37,877 bases of DNA from a virus. Below are positions 4,609 through 27,535 of the stretch, one piece after another (position 1 is the stretch's first letter; the number at the start of each line of letters is the position of its first letter). The DNA lies in the IMG/VR virus record IMGVR_UViG_3300044712_000122, positions 1 through 37,877 of that record. One strand, given 5' to 3'. The notes below the pieces were generated by a model that was not told where the DNA came from, ran no database searches, and saw only the letters and a list, made by a program, of their open reading frames with translations. The position numbers were made by a program, and so were the translations under genes.

Positions 4609-4808
4609 TATTGGATTTAGATCCTCTGCCGTATAGAGTAGCGATTGACATTATCAAGTGGTGCTATGATAATGACATAGATCGTAAGAAGTCGCGTGAA
4701 CTAATTGAAATGATGAATCTAAAGCCACATGATTGGCCAGAACACGTTGATTGGACATTGGATGTACCGGATACTTACGCAAGTTGGTTAGTGTTGAGGT
4801 ATGCATGA
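4605..4808 (+). CDS. LRY-tail family small protein
   Basis: 67 aa, function unknown. The start at 4605 follows from the ATGA overlap. The first 40 residues are mostly helical (VAIDIIKWCYDNDIDRKK, RELIEMMNL). The end VPDTYASWLVLRYA-stop is a divergent form of the family tail without the preceding charged strand. TTGAGGTATGCATGA gives SD and start for the next gene. Confidence 0.65.
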   Translation: MILDLDPLPYRVAIDIIKWCYDNDIDRKKSRELIEMMNLKPHDWPEHVDWTLDVPDTYASWLVLRYA

Positions 4809-5080
4809 GATTTGAATGTAATCAAGGTGTACCTAAAGGTTGTATAGAATGGTTGTGCGAAAATGTAGGAAATGGTAATGTAACCATTGACGGATTTAGA
4901 AAAACTAAGGACGGAGAACGATGGAACATAGACAAACCTGAATACGATTGGTTCTTTGAGCGTATAGAAGTTCCAATCCCAAGTACCGATCCTTCTAGGG
5001 ATTCTAATGCTAGATATGTCCCTACGATTACTGTTAAAGATGAAAAGAAAGCAATACTATTTGCATTGAGGTGGTTATGA
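4805..5080 (+). CDS. LRW-tail family small protein with insert
   Basis: 91 aa, function unknown. The N-terminal helix motif CIEWLCENVGNGNVTIDGF (about 14-32) is followed by a longer loop than usual (RIEVPIPSTDPSRDSNARYV) before the closing strand and TVKDEKKAILFALRWL-stop. Start at 4805 by ATGA overlap. End TTGAGGTGGTTATGA. Confidence 0.7.
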   Translation: MRFECNQGVPKGCIEWLCENVGNGNVTIDGFRKTKDGERWNIDKPEYDWFFERIEVPIPSTDPSRDSNARYVPTITVKDEKKAILFALRWL

Positions 5081-5499
5081 CTGACAATGAATTGATTGAT
5101 TACACCATCAAGTTTGACACTGATCCTGTTCGTGTCAGGCTTGCTACATATATGGATCGGCATCCTGGTGCTATCCTAGATGACCTTGAACGAGCAGGTA
5201 TGGACCCGGAGTTTTGTACCTTTAGGGATAAAGACACTTGTAATGATTATCTTCCTGGTCAGTATATTACTCACCTTGAAGAAGAAGTTCGTTACCTAAA
5301 AGAACAACTACATGAAGCATTGGATGAAATTGAAGAAATGAAACCAATGTCAGTGACTGAATTGATTGCTACCTTACGACAAGAGATCCTCGCAGAAAAA
5401 TATCGCAAGGAACACGCAGAACACAAGCGGTGGCAAGCAGAAAAAGAGCGTGAAGAAATGAAGGAAAAACTTGACATGTGGGCGATCTTGAACCGATGA
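5077..5499 (+). CDS. hypothetical coiled-coil protein within the array
   Basis: 140 aa, function unknown, no LRW tail. The N-terminal 70 residues are globular (VRVRLATYMDRHPGAILDDL, PGQYITHLEEEV). From about residue 68 to the end it is a long charged helix with heptad-like spacing (EEEVRYLKEQLHEALDEIEE, then KYRKEHAEHKRWQAEKEREE), so a dimeric coiled coil is likely. It uses the SD supplied by the preceding LRW gene and passes translation to the next by an ATGA overlap (CCGATGACA). Confidence 0.65.
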   Translation: MTDNELIDYTIKFDTDPVRVRLATYMDRHPGAILDDLERAGMDPEFCTFRDKDTCNDYLPGQYITHLEEEVRYLKEQLHEALDEIEEMKPMSVTELIATLRQEILAEKYRKEHAEHKRWQAEKEREEMKEKLDMWAILNR

Positions 5500-5750
5500 C
5501 AGCTAAACTTACATTAGAGGAAAAAACATGGCACGGATGTAAGTACTACACCGTACAGCCATTTCTAACCTCATGGAGTTTGTCAGAGAATAACGATACA
5601 TGGAACAAGATATCACAGTGGTGTTATGACACATATGGACAACCCGCAGATCCTTGGGATCAAAAGCCTGGTAGATGGTATCTTAACAATAGTCAATATT
5701 GGTTTCGTGAAGAATCTGATAGAACGATGTTCATATTGAGGTGGAGTTGA
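5496..5750 (+). CDS. LRW-tail family small protein
   Basis: 84 aa, function unknown. The ATGA overlap at 5496 is preferred to a GTG at 5478. Good example of the domain: ISQWCYDTYGQPADPWDQKP (about 41-60), GRWYLNN strand, YWFREESDRTMFILRWS-stop. The junction TTGAGGTGGAGTTGATG keeps the SD and uses a one-base TGATG overlap. Confidence 0.75.
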   Translation: MTAKLTLEEKTWHGCKYYTVQPFLTSWSLSENNDTWNKISQWCYDTYGQPADPWDQKPGRWYLNNSQYWFREESDRTMFILRWS

Positions 5751-5992
5751 TGAATAACATTTCTGTTCATAATCTTATCGATAGTCGCATTCTAACCCAG
5801 CTGAGGGAGATTAATAAGCCCAGTAAAACTTATTGGCCCTATCAGATTATCCTGACTTCTTGGCGTGATGTACTTCCTGCTGAACGATTCTGCTATGATA
5901 ATTTCAAAAGCAGAAACTGGAGGAACATCGGAGGCGACTTTTATTTTAAGCGCAAAGAAGATTACGAGTGGTTTGTATTGAGGTGGTCATAA
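5750..5992 (+). CDS. LRW-tail family small protein
   Basis: 80 aa, function unknown. Start ATG 5750 overlaps the stop by one base; the SD is the GAGGTGG in the previous LRW codons. Family domain: ERFCYDNFKSRNWRNIGG (about 46-63), then DFYFKRKEDYEWFVLRWS-stop, close to the tail of the 3388 protein. Junction TTGAGGTGGTCATAATG. Confidence 0.75.
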   Translation: MNNISVHNLIDSRILTQLREINKPSKTYWPYQIILTSWRDVLPAERFCYDNFKSRNWRNIGGDFYFKRKEDYEWFVLRWS

Positions 5993-6240
5993 TGTTCATT
6001 CATACGTACACACAAAAGAACTATGACGCACGAGAGCCAGAAATAGAAAAATGGCACGTTGCGGCATTTACTCTTCCAAAAAATCATTATGAGATTTATG
6101 ATTGGTGCTACCACACATTCGGACCATCAGGCTTCAATCACGATACACGACAAACTAGATGGGGTGATGAAATTCGTGACGGTGAGGTTTACTTTAGGGA
6201 TGAAAAAGACCTTGAGTGGTTTGTGTTGAGGTGGGAATGA
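5992..6240 (+). CDS. LRW-tail family small protein
   Basis: 82 aa, function unknown. Start at the TAATG overlap. Domain: IYDWCYHTFGPSGFNHDTR (about 35-53), TRWGDEI strand, EVYFRDEKDLEWFVLRWE-stop. The W-C-x3-F-G motif here is closest to those at 781 and 5496. The final residue is Glu rather than S/A/L, giving GGGAATGA at the junction with the SD kept. Confidence 0.75.
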   Translation: MFIHTYTQKNYDAREPEIEKWHVAAFTLPKNHYEIYDWCYHTFGPSGFNHDTRQTRWGDEIRDGEVYFRDEKDLEWFVLRWE

Positions 6241-6392
6241 GATACAAAGAAAGTCGTTGGGAAATCAAAAATATAGAAGGCAATTGGCGTGCTACTCATT
6301 TCTTTGTAAGCACTTATGGCACTGTTGGATACACTTATGATGAATTTGACACAGAAGCCGAAGCCTTGATGTATGTGTTGAGATGGTCGTGA
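6237..6392 (+). CDS. LRW-tail family mini-protein
   Basis: 51 aa, function unknown; the smallest member, essentially one domain. ATG 6237 overlaps the preceding stop (ATGA) behind TTGAGGTGGGA. It has W-R-A-T-H-F-F-V-S-T-Y-G in place of the usual W-C-x3-F-G helix, and ends EAEALMYVLRWS-stop. The frame is open with the right overlap on both sides, so it is a real gene despite its size. Its end (TTGAGATGGTCGTGA) starts the next gene with GTG. Confidence 0.7.
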   Translation: MRYKESRWEIKNIEGNWRATHFFVSTYGTVGYTYDEFDTEAEALMYVLRWS

Positions 6393-6562
6393 AACGTCAT
6401 AAAATTACAACAGAATTTTGGAACTGGAATCGTAAGTTAGAAATTAAACTTTGGCTAGTAAAAAACTTTGGCGTAAATGGTGACCGATGGGGCGAAGGCC
6501 TTGGCGATAATTTTTGGATGAACGAAGATGTTTATGTATTATATTGTTTGAGGTGGTCATAA
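6389..6562 (+). CDS. LRW-tail family mini-protein with GTG start
   Basis: 57 aa, function unknown. GTG 6389 overlaps the upstream stop as GTGA, the only GTG start in the array. Sequence: EIKLWLVKNFGVNGDRWGEG (about 18-37), then MNEDVYVLYCLRWS-stop. Together with the gene at 6237 it fills 6237-6562, leaving no gap. The junction TTGAGGTGGTCATAATG is identical to that at 5992. Confidence 0.7.
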   Translation: MKRHKITTEFWNWNRKLEIKLWLVKNFGVNGDRWGEGLGDNFWMNEDVYVLYCLRWS

Positions 6563-6846
6563 TGGAAATATTTTATGGTGGTGGAGGCGCAAGCAATCCT
6601 AGTTTTATATATCAATTTAAAGTAAAAAAATGCACGACTGAAATGTATGAATGGGCTAAACAATATCCTAGTAAAGGTTCTTTTAGTCGTTGGTATGTAG
6701 AATGGGCTGCTGTTTATAACAGTGCAGGTAGGCAAAGAGATTACGATGTAATACAGATTGAACATAGCGAAGCAGCCAAAGTATTCCGTATCGCATTTGC
6801 AGGTGAGTATGAAGATATCACTATGAAAGAGTATAGGCTTGATTGA
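6562..6846 (+). CDS. divergent array protein, lost LRW tail
   Basis: 94 aa, function unknown. Start ATG 6562 at the TAATG overlap. It keeps the family plan (MYEWAKQYPSKGSFSRWYVEW, about 27-47; VIQIEHSEAAKVFRIAF near the end), but the LRW is replaced by RIAFAGEY and the chain runs about a dozen residues further. The next start no longer has the AGGTGG SD, which fits loss of the double-use codons here. Confidence 0.6.
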   Translation: MEIFYGGGGASNPSFIYQFKVKKCTTEMYEWAKQYPSKGSFSRWYVEWAAVYNSAGRQRDYDVIQIEHSEAAKVFRIAFAGEYEDITMKEYRLD

Positions 6847-7057
6847 AGTCAGACTATTAGACCAAACAATCACTGGGTATTTAGAAATAGTTATTGATCT
6901 TAAATCTCGAGGCTATGTTATAGGCCAAGACTTTGACTTTGCATACCATCCACCCAAATTTGATGACTTTTCAGGCGATGCCGTCTATAATAGGTGTGTA
7001 GTATTCACGTTTTACAAAGAAGAAATAGCAACATGGTTCAGTCTACTGTATCAATAA
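6839..7057 (+). CDS. divergent array protein, TTG start
   Basis: 72 aa, function unknown. No ATG is available near the N-terminus; a TTG at 6839 overlapping the upstream stop is the best start, with weak SD-like purines upstream. The end FTFYKEEIATWFSLLYQ-stop is a degenerate version of the family tail (F-x-L-L-Y for F-x-L-R-W). The start is uncertain. Confidence 0.45.
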   Translation: MIEVRLLDQTITGYLEIVIDLKSRGYVIGQDFDFAYHPPKFDDFSGDAVYNRCVVFTFYKEEIATWFSLLYQ

Positions 7058-7323
7058 CATCGAGTGATTGTTTGGCTGAGGAATATGTTGCTATACTAGC
7101 AGATGAAATCCAAAAAGAAATTGACGAGAGTATTATGTTAGACATGTTAGTTGAAATGGGTTGGACTAAAGTCGAATTAGAACGTTTGAAAGATAGATAT
7201 GAATCCATTGATATTGAACTATGGATTGATGAAAATTGTAAAGGTAAGCACACGAAGTTAGGTAGAACATTTGTTTTTGAAAAGAAACAAGACGCAGAAT
7301 GGTTCATGCTTAAATGGCTATAA
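7033..7323 (+). CDS. chimeric LRW-family protein (LKW variant) with Asp/Glu-rich helical N-terminus
   Basis: 96 aa, function unknown. Start ATG 7033 overlaps the preceding gene by 25 bases; longer readings are unlikely. Residues about 13-48 form helices (LAEEYVAILADEIQKEIDES, then MLVEMGWTKVELERLK). The first helix faintly resembles the ILxxEIxxEI(N/D)RE helix of gp23 capsid proteins, which I treat as a weak hint only. The second half is a standard domain: LWIDENCKGKHTKLG, TFVFEKKQDAEWFMLKWL-stop. It is closest to the 2378 protein. The AAATGG codons contain the next ATG. Confidence 0.65.
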   Translation: MVQSTVSITSSDCLAEEYVAILADEIQKEIDESIMLDMLVEMGWTKVELERLKDRYESIDIELWIDENCKGKHTKLGRTFVFEKKQDAEWFMLKWL

Positions 7324-7604
7324 ACTGGGGTAGAAGTATAGGTTGGAATCTAGACTTCATGGCCTTAAAGAAAGAAGGAATGAATTATACTATCATTGAA
7401 AATGGCGCTGATTGCTATCCGTGGCGTGAAGTTTTTGTTTGGTGGCCGTGGGCGACAACTGTAACAGGTAAAAGAGTTTGGTTACAAAAAGTGTATAAGC
7501 GCAAAGTTTGGGTAGTGTGGGGATCGGGGTTTCATATGGAACCAGAAGTACAATACGCTACCGCATTTGATTTGTTAACATATGAAAACAACAATAAACC
7601 TTAA
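7314..7604 (+). CDS. hypothetical protein, relative of the gene at 26517
   Basis: 96 aa, function unknown. The ATG 7314 lies in the preceding AAATGG. It belongs to a second small family: PWREVFVWWPWAT ... RVWLQKVYKRKV ... VQYATAFDLLTYE. The protein at 26517 shares PW...FxW.P, RVWLKTVYRRKI and QYGTIFDVLT. The two are far apart in the genome but both sit in early-type small-gene clusters. No LRW tail. Confidence 0.6.
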   Translation: MAINWGRSIGWNLDFMALKKEGMNYTIIENGADCYPWREVFVWWPWATTVTGKRVWLQKVYKRKVWVVWGSGFHMEPEVQYATAFDLLTYENNNKP

Positions 7605-7803
7605 ACACGGTCTAAGCGGAGAACAAGAACAATGGCTAGCTAAGAACATTGGACCCAGAATGCATTACCTACACAATAGTATAGGTGGACAAGGTTGGAT
7701 AGCTAGATATGATTGGACTTCAGGAGTTGTCCAACGACAATGGACACTAACTTTTGAGGATGAACGCTATGCCACGTTCTTTTTACTAAATTTCCCGCAG
7801 TGA
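7582..7803 (+). CDS. divergent array protein
   Basis: 73 aa, function unknown. ATG 7582 overlaps the previous gene by 23 bases. It keeps the layout (QEQWLAKNIGPRMHYLHN, then WTLTFEDERYATFFLLNFPQ-stop), with NFP in place of LRW. Probably a diverged family member. Confidence 0.6.
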   Translation: MKTTINLKHGLSGEQEQWLAKNIGPRMHYLHNSIGGQGWIARYDWTSGVVQRQWTLTFEDERYATFFLLNFPQ

Positions 7804-7810
7804 GACAAAT

Positions 7811-8062
7811 ATGGCAATAGGACCCTTAGATTCATTTCATCCAGTAATAGAATACGTAGATGCTGTTAGAAACAATACAGACTACGCAACCAAAAAACAA
7901 TACGCACCAAAAGTAGAAGATGCATTAGAACACGTAAAATGGTGTCGTAGAAATTTGGGAGAACGAGGAGACGGCTGGGACTTTGCAGGTTCTGGGAGAA
8001 GTTTGACTATCTTTATATGGTCAAATAAGTTACAATTCATGTATGAAATGTGGCAGCAATGA
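7811..8062 (+). CDS. divergent array protein
   Basis: 83 aa, function unknown. It follows the previous stop by seven bases. The helix motif VKWCRRNLGERGDGWDF (about 43-59) is clearly of the family type, and the end LTIFIWSNKLQFMYEMWQQ-stop looks like a rearranged tail. The last codons (GCAATGATAG) give an ATGA start to the next gene. Confidence 0.6.
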   Translation: MAIGPLDSFHPVIEYVDAVRNNTDYATKKQYAPKVEDALEHVKWCRRNLGERGDGWDFAGSGRSLTIFIWSNKLQFMYEMWQQ

Positions 8063-8271
8063 TAGATAACGGACGAGAAAACACATGGAGACAGTTACAG
8101 GGCTTAAAGCCCATTCAGTCGTTGCGATGTAGATTGGGTTGGCATCGTTGGACAAGTTACGAAACATTGGAGCGCGGCGAATATGGTGGAGTATGGGCTA
8201 GATGCAACTGTGCTGACTGTGGTATGCCTAGAATAGAACAACCTTATACGAGTAAAAAAAATGGCAAATGA
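8059..8271 (+). CDS. small Cys-rich phage protein
   Basis: 70 aa. C-R-L-G-W-H-R-W near the N-terminus and C-N-C-A-D-C-G-M-P-R near the C-terminus suggest one zinc-binding site. The pattern C.l.GH.W...C..CG recalls short phage proteins of the DUF1660 type; not certain. The ATGA start at 8059 is preferred over GTG 8050. Its last codons (ATGGCAAATGA) overlap what was once the start of dexA (see 8261). Confidence 0.6.
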   Translation: MIDNGRENTWRQLQGLKPIQSLRCRLGWHRWTSYETLERGEYGGVWARCNCADCGMPRIEQPYTSKKNGK

Positions 8272-8284
8272 TATAATGATTGAC
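8261..8284 (+). pseudogene. duplicated 5' end of dexA left by HNH gene insertion
   Basis: These 24 bases match the first 24 bases of dexA (8942-8965) at 21 positions, with the last 15 bases (GATATAATGATTGAC) identical. They encode MANDIMID versus MAADIMID. After 8284 the sequence departs into the leader of the HNH gene. The old start overlapped the stop of the preceding gene, as is normal in this operon. I infer that the HNH gene inserted at the beginning of dexA and that a second copy of the start was kept or restored. Confidence 0.75.
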
Positions 8285-8290
8285 AGATTA

Positions 8291-8298
8291 GATAAATA
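8291..8298 (+). promoter_or_regulatory. T4-type late promoter motif for the HNH gene
   Basis: GATAAATA followed by CT. Transcription from about 8304 would give a leader of some 15 bases with an AAGGA SD before ATG 8319. The motif lies inside the inserted segment. Confidence 0.5.
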
Positions 8299-8318
8299 CT
8301 CTATCAAGGAAATATATT

Positions 8319-8939
8319 ATGTCATACAGAAAAATATGGGAATCGGTGTACGGACCTATACCAAAAGACAAAGATGGTAGAAGTTATGAGATACACCATA
8401 TAGATGGAAATCACGAGAATGATTCATTGGATAATCTAAAATTGGTAACTATTGAGGAGCATTATCAAATTCATTTTGAGCAAGGAGATTATGGTGCATG
8501 TTGGTCTATAGCTAATAGAATGAGTATACCGGTCGAAGTAAGTAAGAAACTACAAAGTGAATTAAGTAAAAAATTAGCCAAGCAACGGATAGAAAACGGA
8601 ACACATAATTTTTCTAGTGAACTAAGTAAACAAACTCAACTAGCCCGTATCAAAGAAGGCACACATAATTTTCAAGGGGTGCGCGGGAGTATTAATGCGA
8701 TTAAGAGAAATAAAAAATTAGTAGAGTTGGGAAAGCACCCTTGGGCAGGCGAAAGAGGTCAAGAGCACAATAGTAAACAGACTAAAGAAAGACTTGATAA
8801 TGGTACTCATAATTTTTTAGGAGATTCACACCCTAATAAAAATATGATGAAATTATCATGTACTCATTGCGGTAAGATCGGTGGAAAAAATTTAATGAAA
8901 AGATATCATTTTGATAATTGTAAATTTAAAAAGGAATAA
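8319..8939 (+). CDS. HNH homing endonuclease with GTH-F repeats and zinc-finger tail
   Basis: 206 aa. Catalytic HNH motif: YEIHHIDGNHENDSLDNL (about 23-40), followed by a His-containing helix (TIEEHYQIHF). The rest has about four modules of the type RIENGTHNF / RIKEGTHNF / RLDNGTHNF and a terminal C-T-H-C-G-K ... RYHFDNC zinc-finger segment. Both the repeats and the tail match those of the GIY-YIG protein at 1451-2248, although the catalytic domains are unrelated. It lies between the small-gene array and dexA, with a duplicated dexA start on its left. Role: site-specific DNA cutting for gene spread. Confidence 0.92.
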   Translation: MSYRKIWESVYGPIPKDKDGRSYEIHHIDGNHENDSLDNLKLVTIEEHYQIHFEQGDYGACWSIANRMSIPVEVSKKLQSELSKKLAKQRIENGTHNFSSELSKQTQLARIKEGTHNFQGVRGSINAIKRNKKLVELGKHPWAGERGQEHNSKQTKERLDNGTHNFLGDSHPNKNMMKLSCTHCGKIGGKNLMKRYHFDNCKFKKE

Positions 8940-8941
8940 TA

Positions 8942-9511
8942 ATGGCAGCGGATATAATGATTGACCTTGAAACACTTGACACGACACCTTATTGTGTAAT
9001 TCTCACAATTGGTGTTGTTAGATTTGATCCCAGAGGTCAGGGTGTCGTAGAGCGATTAGAACTACGACCCACGGTCGAGGATCAAACAGACATTCATAAT
9101 AGGATTATCAATGAAGATACATTACGATGGTGGTCTACGCAGAGCCCTGACGCACTTGAAGAAGCACTGGGAGACAGGGGACGTACATCATTTAAAGAGT
9201 GCATGGAGACCCTTTATAAGTTCTGTTGGAATCGTCGTGCTGTTTGGAGTAATGGTGCGTCATTTGACGTAGTAGCTTGCGAAACGGGTATGCGTCAAAC
9301 ACTAACTGACTATTCTAATCCTATTCCCTGGCCTTTCTGGACTGTTAGGGACACACGTACACTGTACGAGATTGCAGGTGTTAGTTTGAAAGATAAAAAA
9401 TACGGCAGCAAAACAACTCACAAGGCAGTCGAAGATGCAGAGCATCAGGCTATCGTTGTGCAAGACGCATACATGAAACTGATGAAAGCAGGATTGGCGG
9501 CACCGCGATGA
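8942..9511 (+). CDS. dexA: DexA-like 3'-5' exonuclease (DEDDh, RNase H fold)
   Basis: 189 aa, slightly shorter than T4 DexA (about 227). Exo I motif D8-x-E10 in DIMIDLET; Exo II region WSNGASFD with D109; Exo III H160 and D165 in HKAVEDAEHQ. This DEDDh set matches the DexA / Rv2179c-like exonuclease family. T4 DexA degrades DNA from 3' ends and is thought to help break down host DNA. SD AAGGA upstream. The third codon differs from the displaced copy at 8261 (GCG for AAT). ATGA overlap with the next gene. Confidence 0.9.
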   Translation: MAADIMIDLETLDTTPYCVILTIGVVRFDPRGQGVVERLELRPTVEDQTDIHNRIINEDTLRWWSTQSPDALEEALGDRGRTSFKECMETLYKFCWNRRAVWSNGASFDVVACETGMRQTLTDYSNPIPWPFWTVRDTRTLYEIAGVSLKDKKYGSKTTHKAVEDAEHQAIVVQDAYMKLMKAGLAAPR

Positions 9512-26520: not shown

Positions 26521-26741
26521 ACTTCAACCCCGCTCCCAAGTATCCAACTTGGAACGATTATGTTGCGAGAAAGATTGTCAAATCTCCTTGGGAGCAGTGG
26601 TTCGCCTGGTACCCCGTCAAAGTACACAACGAACGAGTGTGGTTAAAGACTGTATACCGTCGCAAAATAAACGAATATGTAGACATGGAGAGTTGGTCTA
26701 GATACCAATATGGTACAATCTTCGATGTATTGACTGATTGA
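26517..26741 (+). CDS. small hypothetical protein, relative of the gene at 7314
   Basis: 74 aa. Start ATG 26517 overlaps the preceding stop (ATGA). Shared motifs with the 7314 protein: PWEQWFAWYP, RVWLKTVYRRKI, and QYGTIFDVLTD at the end. The Trp/Arg-rich composition suggests a compact domain that binds nucleic acid or protein. It is the last gene of the early operon, and its stop codon is the first base of the hairpin that guards gp13. Confidence 0.6.
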   Translation: MNFNPAPKYPTWNDYVARKIVKSPWEQWFAWYPVKVHNERVWLKTVYRRKINEYVDMESWSRYQYGTIFDVLTD

Positions 26742-26769
26742 TCTCCTGATAAATACAGTATCAGGAGAT
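26741..26769 (+). promoter_or_regulatory. late promoter in the loop of an SD-masking hairpin
   Basis: ATCTCCTGAT (26741-26750) is the exact complement of ATCAGGAGAT (26760-26769), which contains the AGGAG SD of gp13. GATAAATAC (26748-26756) occupies the end of the left arm and the loop. Read-through RNA would hide the SD; RNA started near 26761 cannot. This is the arrangement known for T4 genes e, soc and I-TevI. Confidence 0.85.
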
Positions 26770-26773
26770 ATCC

Positions 26774-27535
26774 ATGGCTGGACAAACATTATCAGAACTC
26801 AAAGAAGCATTATTCAATAATTTACGACTACGCCTCGGCGATGGTATGGTCGATGTTGAATTAGATCCAGAACATTATGAAGCGGCGTATCAATACACAA
26901 TTAAGTTATACAGACAACGTGCGCAAAATGCTACAGAGGAATCGTACACTTTGATGGAAATTCATGCTAACGTCAATTCATACACATTACCTAGCGAATT
27001 CATCAATGTTCGTCAAGTATTCCGTAGAACAGTAGGTTTGGAAACTGGTCCAGCAGCCAGTTCATTTGACCCCTTTTCAAGTGCTATTCTTAATACCTAT
27101 TTGCTGAACTACAACTATGCAGGTGGTTTGGCAACGTATGACTTTTATGCCCAATACATTGAATTAGCAGCACGTATGTTCGGTGGATATGTAATTTATA
27201 CATTCAACCCTGTTACTAAAGTATTGCAGATTGTGCGTGATCCAAAAGGCACCGGTGAAAAAATTCTAATTTGGGCCGACACACAGAAGCCGGAAACAAC
27301 ACTACTGCAAGACCCGGGCGCAGGAGTTTGGATCGGTGACTATATCCTAGCTGTTTTGAAGGGCATCTTGGGTGAGGCACGTGAGAAGTTTGCAAGTATC
27401 GCGGGTCCAGGTGGAGGTACATCTTTAAATGGTTCAGCATTGAAAGCAGAATCTAAAGCCGAACAAGATCGATTACTTGAAGACCTAAAACGATTCGTAG
27501 ATTACAGTCAGCCATATTCATTCGTTATTGGTTAA
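26774..27535 (+). CDS. 13: neck/head completion protein, T4 gp13 type
   Basis: 253 aa; T4 gp13 has 309. The opening LSELKEALFNNLRLRLGDGM, then VDVELDPEHYEAAYQYTIKL, parallels T4 LKDVILRRLGAP-INVELTPDQ. The ending GPGGGTSLNGSALKAESKAE, then PYSFVIG, parallels T4 [20 protein letters not shown] and PFGILVG. Gp13 closes the filled head with gp14 and forms the docking site for the tail. It is on the plus strand, more than 2 kb from the inverted 14-15 pair. Translation appears gated by a hairpin with a late promoter in its loop. Confidence 0.88.
   Translation: MAGQTLSELKEALFNNLRLRLGDGMVDVELDPEHYEAAYQYTIKLYRQRAQNATEESYTLMEIHANVNSYTLPSEFINVRQVFRRTVGLETGPAASSFDPFSSAILNTYLLNYNYAGGLATYDFYAQYIELAARMFGGYVIYTFNPVTKVLQIVRDPKGTGEKILIWADTQKPETTLLQDPGAGVWIGDYILAVLKGILGEAREKFASIAGPGGGTSLNGSALKAESKAEQDRLLEDLKRFVDYSQPYSFVIG

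Follow-up and report, generated by a model that had tools for sequence, protein, structure and literature searches.

An I-TevIII-like HNH endonuclease gene between a displaced and a recoded start of a phage dexA gene: a candidate natural home-and-rescue element

The window, i.e., the whole stretch of 37,877 nucleotides of viral DNA analysed here, carries an HNH endonuclease gene between two versions of the first eight codons of dexA. The features of this locus, in the order of their coordinates, are:

8059..8271, + strand: last small gene of the upstream 'array' (ATG at 8059 or GTG at 8050), with its stop codon within the displaced dexA start
8261..8284, + strand: displaced ancestral dexA codons 1-8, ATGGCAAATGATATAATGATTGAC, encoding MANDIMID and identical to the dexA start of L001
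8284..8285, no strand: insertion point after codon 8 (GAC), identical in five loci
8291..8298, + strand: putative late promoter of the HNH gene, GATAAATA, of T4 type, located in the loop of a predicted hairpin; GATAAATA is invariant in five loci
8306..8310, + strand: ribosome-binding site of the HNH gene (AAGGA), predicted to be paired and hidden in read-through transcripts
8319..8939, + strand: I-TevIII-like HNH homing endonuclease gene, 206 aa, with the HNH motif and the C-terminal CxxC..HxxxxC finger intact
8930..8935, + strand: ribosome-binding site AAAGGA of the working dexA, within the last HNH codons, as likewise in L082, L148, L266 and L083
8942..8965, + strand: working, recoded dexA codons 1-8, ATGGCAGCGGATATAATGATTGAC, encoding MAADIMID; 3' end of the putative mobile unit
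8966..9511, + strand: remainder of the working dexA, a DEDD-type 3'-5' exonuclease gene (Pfam PF16473, 1.5e-31; PHROG exonuclease, 7e-37)

The dexA start at 8942-8965 recurs at 8261-8284 with 21 of 24 matching positions, and the sole difference is codon 3, which is AAT in the upstream and GCG in the working copy. Both the repeat and the peptides MANDIMID (displaced) and MAADIMID (working) had been recognised in a preliminary description of this DNA and are borne out by direct comparison, as is the location of the HNH gene (8319-8939) and its late promoter (8291-8298) between the two dexA starts. Two details of that description have to be corrected. The offset between the copies is 681 bp and not 705 bp, the latter being the whole span, and the displaced copy does not directly follow the last array gene: the TGA stop of this gene at 8269-8271 lies within ATGGCAAATGA, so that the displaced copy overlaps the last 11 nt of its upstream neighbour. 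No further site with up to three mismatches exists in the window beyond 8261-8284 and 8942-8965, and the 24-mer repeat was absent from 100 dinucleotide shuffles of the window (0 in 100), which rules out a chance repeat of the dexA start. The displaced start at 8261-8284 presumably represents the left half of the homing site.

The region upstream of the locus, from about 4750 to 8271 of the window, consists of a run of overlapping small genes, many with (W)F.LRW-type C-terminal residues. Similar small genes are located upstream of dexA in relatives, where they are gained, lost and swapped at that junction. Orthologues of the last array gene were found in L082, L148, L228, L280 and L246.

The HNH gene product matches Pfam HNH_3 (2e-11, 43.8 bits versus a cut-off of 24.8) and the intron-like DNA endonuclease of PHROG (2.4e-35). 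The residues EIHHIDGNHEN..NLK..EH are conserved across the aligned relatives, leaving the HNH catalytic motif intact, and the protein is 36-37% identical to the I-TevIII-type proteins of T-even phages over 99% of its length. Its nearest known relatives are intron-encoded, and the displaced copy joined to codon 9 gives exactly MANDIMIDLETL, both of which would suit a self-splicing, HNH-bearing intron with the displaced MANDIMID as exon 1 and codon 9 onward as exon 2. We nevertheless regard such an intron as extremely improbable. Rfam yields no match at this locus even at E=1, and the approximately 36 nt that remain once the HNH gene and the repeated start are subtracted are too few to accommodate a group I core. 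The second copy is equipped with a start codon and a ribosome site of its own, and in three loci the putative exon 1 lacks a start codon. Judged by its sequence, the HNH gene is an I-TevIII-family endonuclease gene without an intron, which would home in a free-standing manner.

Relatives of dexA provide insight into the uninterrupted state of the locus. A set of 80 relatives and another 80 around the L148 dexA resulted in 97 distinct loci, one of which is a duplicate record of L082; 96 were taken into the dexA tree. An adjoining HNH gene is lacking in 91 distinct loci and present in five. Nearly all of the HNH-free loci have a single dexA start, usually MANDIMID, and the consensus of their starts matches the displaced sequence ATGGCAAATGATATAATGATTGAC exactly. 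In L001 this 24-mer is followed directly by a window-type dexA body, the closest to that of the window, with which it forms a sister pair in the dexA tree (support 99/97). The preliminary description had suggested comparing the array-dexA junction of relatives without the HNH gene, and had named a relative of this kind with both copies of the dexA start as evidence against a homing insertion. In L228, L280 and L246 the junction is uninterrupted: the same upstream gene runs straight into a single MANDIMID start. L228 and L280 are 78% identical to the window over 210-218 bp through the last base of codon 8, and this identity ends where the insertion in the window begins. For 86 of the HNH-free loci 300 bp or more of sequence upstream of dexA is available, and a second copy of the start occurs in none of them, the best weak match (L227, 5 mismatches in 21) being at chance level.

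The occupied state is found in the window, L082, L148 (identical to L149), L194+L266 and L083 (identical to L084), in all of which the HNH gene follows codon 8. L194 and L266 lie at contig ends with 49 bp in common and therefore probably belong to one genome. The HNH-positive loci have different dexA backbones and an identical insertion point, and each displays the same order of elements, i.e., the ancestral start stranded upstream, the late promoter, the HNH gene and a changed dexA start. In an alignment of all five HNH proteins, those of the other loci are 64-73% identical to that of the window. The changed dexA starts read ATGGCAGCGGAT... in the window, ATGGCGGCGGAT... in L082 and L266, ATGGCGGCGGAC...ATAGAT in L148 and TTGAGTAATGAT...TTGGAT in L083, and the working dexA is complete in all of these, with its own start and ribosome site. 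The displaced start has lost the ATGG in L082, L148 and L194. The upstream genes in the window, L082, L194 and L084 match those at HNH-free junctions; the displaced start supplies the stop codon of the upstream gene in the window and L082, and from a reading of the sequence it also seems to do so in L083/L084. The displaced copies vary solely at third codon positions (p=0.003-0.007), a pattern that fits either a recent origin from coding dexA or recognition of the conserved bases at the DNA level. Used as a DNA pattern, the recoded dexA start had no exact match in viral contigs, and the displaced start combined with the late promoter had 21 matches, with dexA downstream only in the known dexA loci. 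The empty junctions, together with the same footprint in four further HNH-positive loci, uphold the earlier interpretation of the repeat as the footprint of a homing endonuclease insertion.

An insert flanked by short direct repeats may likewise recall a transposon or an integrase-type element with target-site duplication. However, the insertion is invariably at the same codon of a single site, the HNH gene alone lies inside and neither a transposase nor an integrase accompanies it, the right copy does not duplicate the left one exactly but is a recoded, codon-aligned gene start, and other members of the HNH family are without such flanking repeats. As no case of an element with exact duplications at unrelated sites was found either, we give this origin hardly any credence. 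Among the 75 HNH-family loci checked, flanking start repeats are confined to the dexA loci, which rules out that such repeats are a general habit of the family. A full-length HNH gene was not found elsewhere in the HNH-free records searched, including those of 260, 135 and 352 kb; these records yielded nothing more than finger-like ends in the phage of L298.

In the dexA tree, which was built without the start codons, the presence of the HNH gene requires five changes: L148, for example, groups with the HNH-free L228/L246, and L083 with the HNH-free L062. This scattered distribution, with a changed start always alongside, implies that the HNH gene is transferred from one dexA backbone to another along with the changed start. 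The mobile unit would consequently extend over about 8285-8965 of the window and comprise the late promoter, the HNH gene, the dexA ribosome site and the changed dexA codons 1-8. We consider the empty junctions, the constant insertion point, the spread over different backbones and the co-transfer of the changed start to be established by these sequence comparisons.

The working start protein differs from MAND(I/V)MID in 5/5 HNH-positive loci versus 17/91 HNH-free loci (Fisher p=4e-4, ignoring relatedness), and alanine at codon 3 is found in 4/5 versus 3/91 (p=5e-5, again ignoring relatedness). In independent pairs the start change follows the HNH gene 5 to 0 in most pairings, where p=0.0625 is the floor with five pairs. 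Only about two independent recodings can be distinguished, the GCG lineage and TTG AGT.../TTG GAT in L083. The recoding would likely block re-cutting of the working dexA start, an idea already put forward in the preliminary description for the AAT to GCG change and lent indirect support by these counts, and protection from cutting is the simplest reason that the sequences suggest for two different recodings. We think it rather unlikely that the codon changes, following a homing insertion, are merely a donor allele that hitch-hiked along with no protective role. The GCG codon could descend from a single donor, and alanine at codon 3 is present in the HNH-free L061 and L298 too, but the two HNH lineages changed differently, the replacement of AAT by GCG alters all three bases, and all five HNH-linked starts are changed, whereas 74 of the 91 HNH-free starts are unchanged.

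The recoding might also mainly prevent recombination between the two copies, as two identical direct repeats of 24 bp would lead to precise deletion of the HNH gene. The longest run common to both copies is just 15, 9, 11, 9 and 12 bases in the five loci, and HNH-free sisters are common, which points to frequent loss or non-acquisition. We are still more doubtful about this as the main cause, since the window retains a run of 15 bases and the changes in four loci are concentrated at codons 2-3 instead of being evenly spread. Avoidance of recombination and protection from cutting are, moreover, compatible with each other.

Three HNH-free loci (L061, L068 and L298) have alanine at codon 3, of which only L068 displays a scar. 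L068 (3988-4024) has no HNH gene, and its GCGGCG start follows AATAAGGAATAA, 12 bases that exactly match the 3' end of the HNH gene in L082/L148/L266. Compared with its sister L052, L068 differs by 25% in the dexA start and by 3.7% in the body. It is probable from this pattern that L068 acquired or kept the replacement start without the nuclease, as a scar or by partial transfer. The HNH-free dexA genes at L298:3001 and L061:4001, which start with MAAD, may represent old conversions or independent changes.

The late promoter motif ATAAATA is located 8-45 bp upstream of 12 of 58 crude genes in the window, several of them structural (null mean 0.66, maximum 4 in 1000), and is a real promoter signal in this phage; its use by the HNH gene is inferred from the placement of the motif. 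Folding predictions for all five loci assign the displaced start to the 5' arm of a hairpin over the HNH ribosome site and start codon, with the late promoter in the loop. The z-scores of this hairpin are -2.66, -4.90, -2.35, -3.45 and -4.38 with the displaced copy. Removal of the copy brings them close to zero for the window, L082 and L083 and weakens the score of L194; the trimmed pieces of L148 and L194 still contained part of the displaced copy. According to the predicted folding, the unpaired probability of the HNH ribosome site and start is 0.20-0.44 in read-through RNA versus 0.54-0.79 in late RNA, taken to begin directly downstream of the late promoter. When the displaced copy is shuffled, the observed unpaired value is attained in 5, 22, 6, 11 and 6 of 500 trials in the five loci. 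Two-sided covariation in the hairpin was not found across the five loci, and the window hairpin pairs in a register different from the other four. Based on these folding models, the displaced copy has probably been reused as a regulatory RNA arm for the HNH gene, a role overlooked in the preliminary description. By analogy to I-TevI, a function as operator is possible. A conserved leader peptide from the displaced start was considered and rejected: the frame is 39 aa long in the window and stops right after codon 8 in L083, and three loci have no start codon. Elsewhere in the window, at 26735-26776 by a neck-protein-like gene (26774-27535), CTCCTGATAAATACAGTATCAGGAG has a late promoter inside a perfect hairpin over the ribosome site.

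We interpret the locus, with a probability of roughly three in four, as the result of a free-standing, I-TevIII-like HNH gene that homed in after dexA codon 8 and would carry a recoded start with it, rescuing dexA, while being regulated by a hairpin. The HNH enzyme would cut the uninterrupted dexA start of co-infecting relatives, and repair of the cut dexA would copy the mobile unit across. The insertion would strand the original start upstream and supply a new one, so that dexA, the gene entered, is rescued. Both products should escape further cutting: the right half of the site is missing from the displaced copy, and in the working copy the left half is altered. In RNA that reads through, the displaced start may base-pair with the ribosome site and start codon of the HNH gene; RNA initiated at the late promoter would be free of the displaced arm, and the HNH protein would consequently be made late. 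The mobile unit would act like a home-and-rescue gene drive. For the more far-reaching proposal, a natural drive of this kind in which the HNH gene enters the start of its target with a cleavage-resistant replacement and the displaced half-site serves as the RNA arm silencing the nuclease until late, we see the chances as evenly balanced. Correct regulation would in that reading depend on sitting at the right target.

The locus resembles I-TevIII-type systems in the HNH protein and in the predicted late promoter with a hairpin at the ribosome site, but it has no intron, and the gene lies inside the dexA start and carries a replacement start. T-even intron endonucleases are known to have late promoters, hairpins by which the ribosome site is masked in read-through RNA, and, immediately preceding the ORF, operators similar to the homing site, and T4 DexA itself affects homing and co-conversion (PMC2988022). 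Unlike in that scheme, the predicted hairpin arm here is the displaced target gene itself. The T4 Seg and Mob endonucleases (SegE by uvsW, SegF by 56, MobE; PMC2988022) are likewise free-standing beside core genes and present or absent among relatives, with flanking sequence co-converted. Those genes, however, lie between genes or split a gene, with cut sites far from the insertion, whereas the HNH gene here enters dexA codons 1-8 and brings new codons 1-8.

MobA and the T4 bypass sequence (PMC5009743) similarly combine an endonuclease with an accessory sequence thought to protect an altered target while the product is kept, there by translational bypass and a split gene, here by a recoded start and an intact gene. 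The engineered HomeR (PMC7968924) parallels our locus in pairing a homing nuclease with a recoded target piece that restores function and is expected to escape cutting, and in the appearance of a resistant functional allele, here the putative one of L068. The present unit differs in being natural and of phage origin, in its use of an HNH enzyme and in a recoding restricted to 8 codons at the 5' end. What sets it apart from known free-standing phage endonucleases is its entry into the first codons of the target and the changed replacement that it brings for them; in a partial literature search no report came to light in which an endonuclease gene brings along a replacement start for its target gene.

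A homing gene can accordingly insert into the conserved IMIDLE motif, after codon 8 and ahead of codon 9, with neither an intron nor an intein and without splitting the gene, and insertion inside an active coding start would be possible because the unit carries the repaired piece along. The locus would be nature's equivalent of engineered rescue drives, with L068 as a putative resistant allele that lacks the drive. How the riboregulation of endonucleases originated likewise becomes a testable question, with the target's own stranded sequence as the candidate regulatory arm.

Members of the HNH family in other phages have a leader of their own, which is conserved in 24 cases (e.g., L098:2896-3006, L165:2898-3009, L204:2905-3015). 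It consists of a late promoter GATAAATAAA, followed by GTAGTTCGCGG, a variable stem and CCCAACTACTCTAAYGCT, then AAGGAG and ATGnnTATTTAT. No Rfam match was obtained for this leader in the 8 loci searched. Its inner stem covaries (29 two-sided cells versus 7 in shuffles), and its late promoter is complementary to the first codons, which suggests a read-through hairpin. Near an HNH gene on a viral-labelled contig, a tmRNA-like gene is located on the minus strand at L097:640-1042 (RF01850, 122 bits; permuted tmRNA model, 118 bits).
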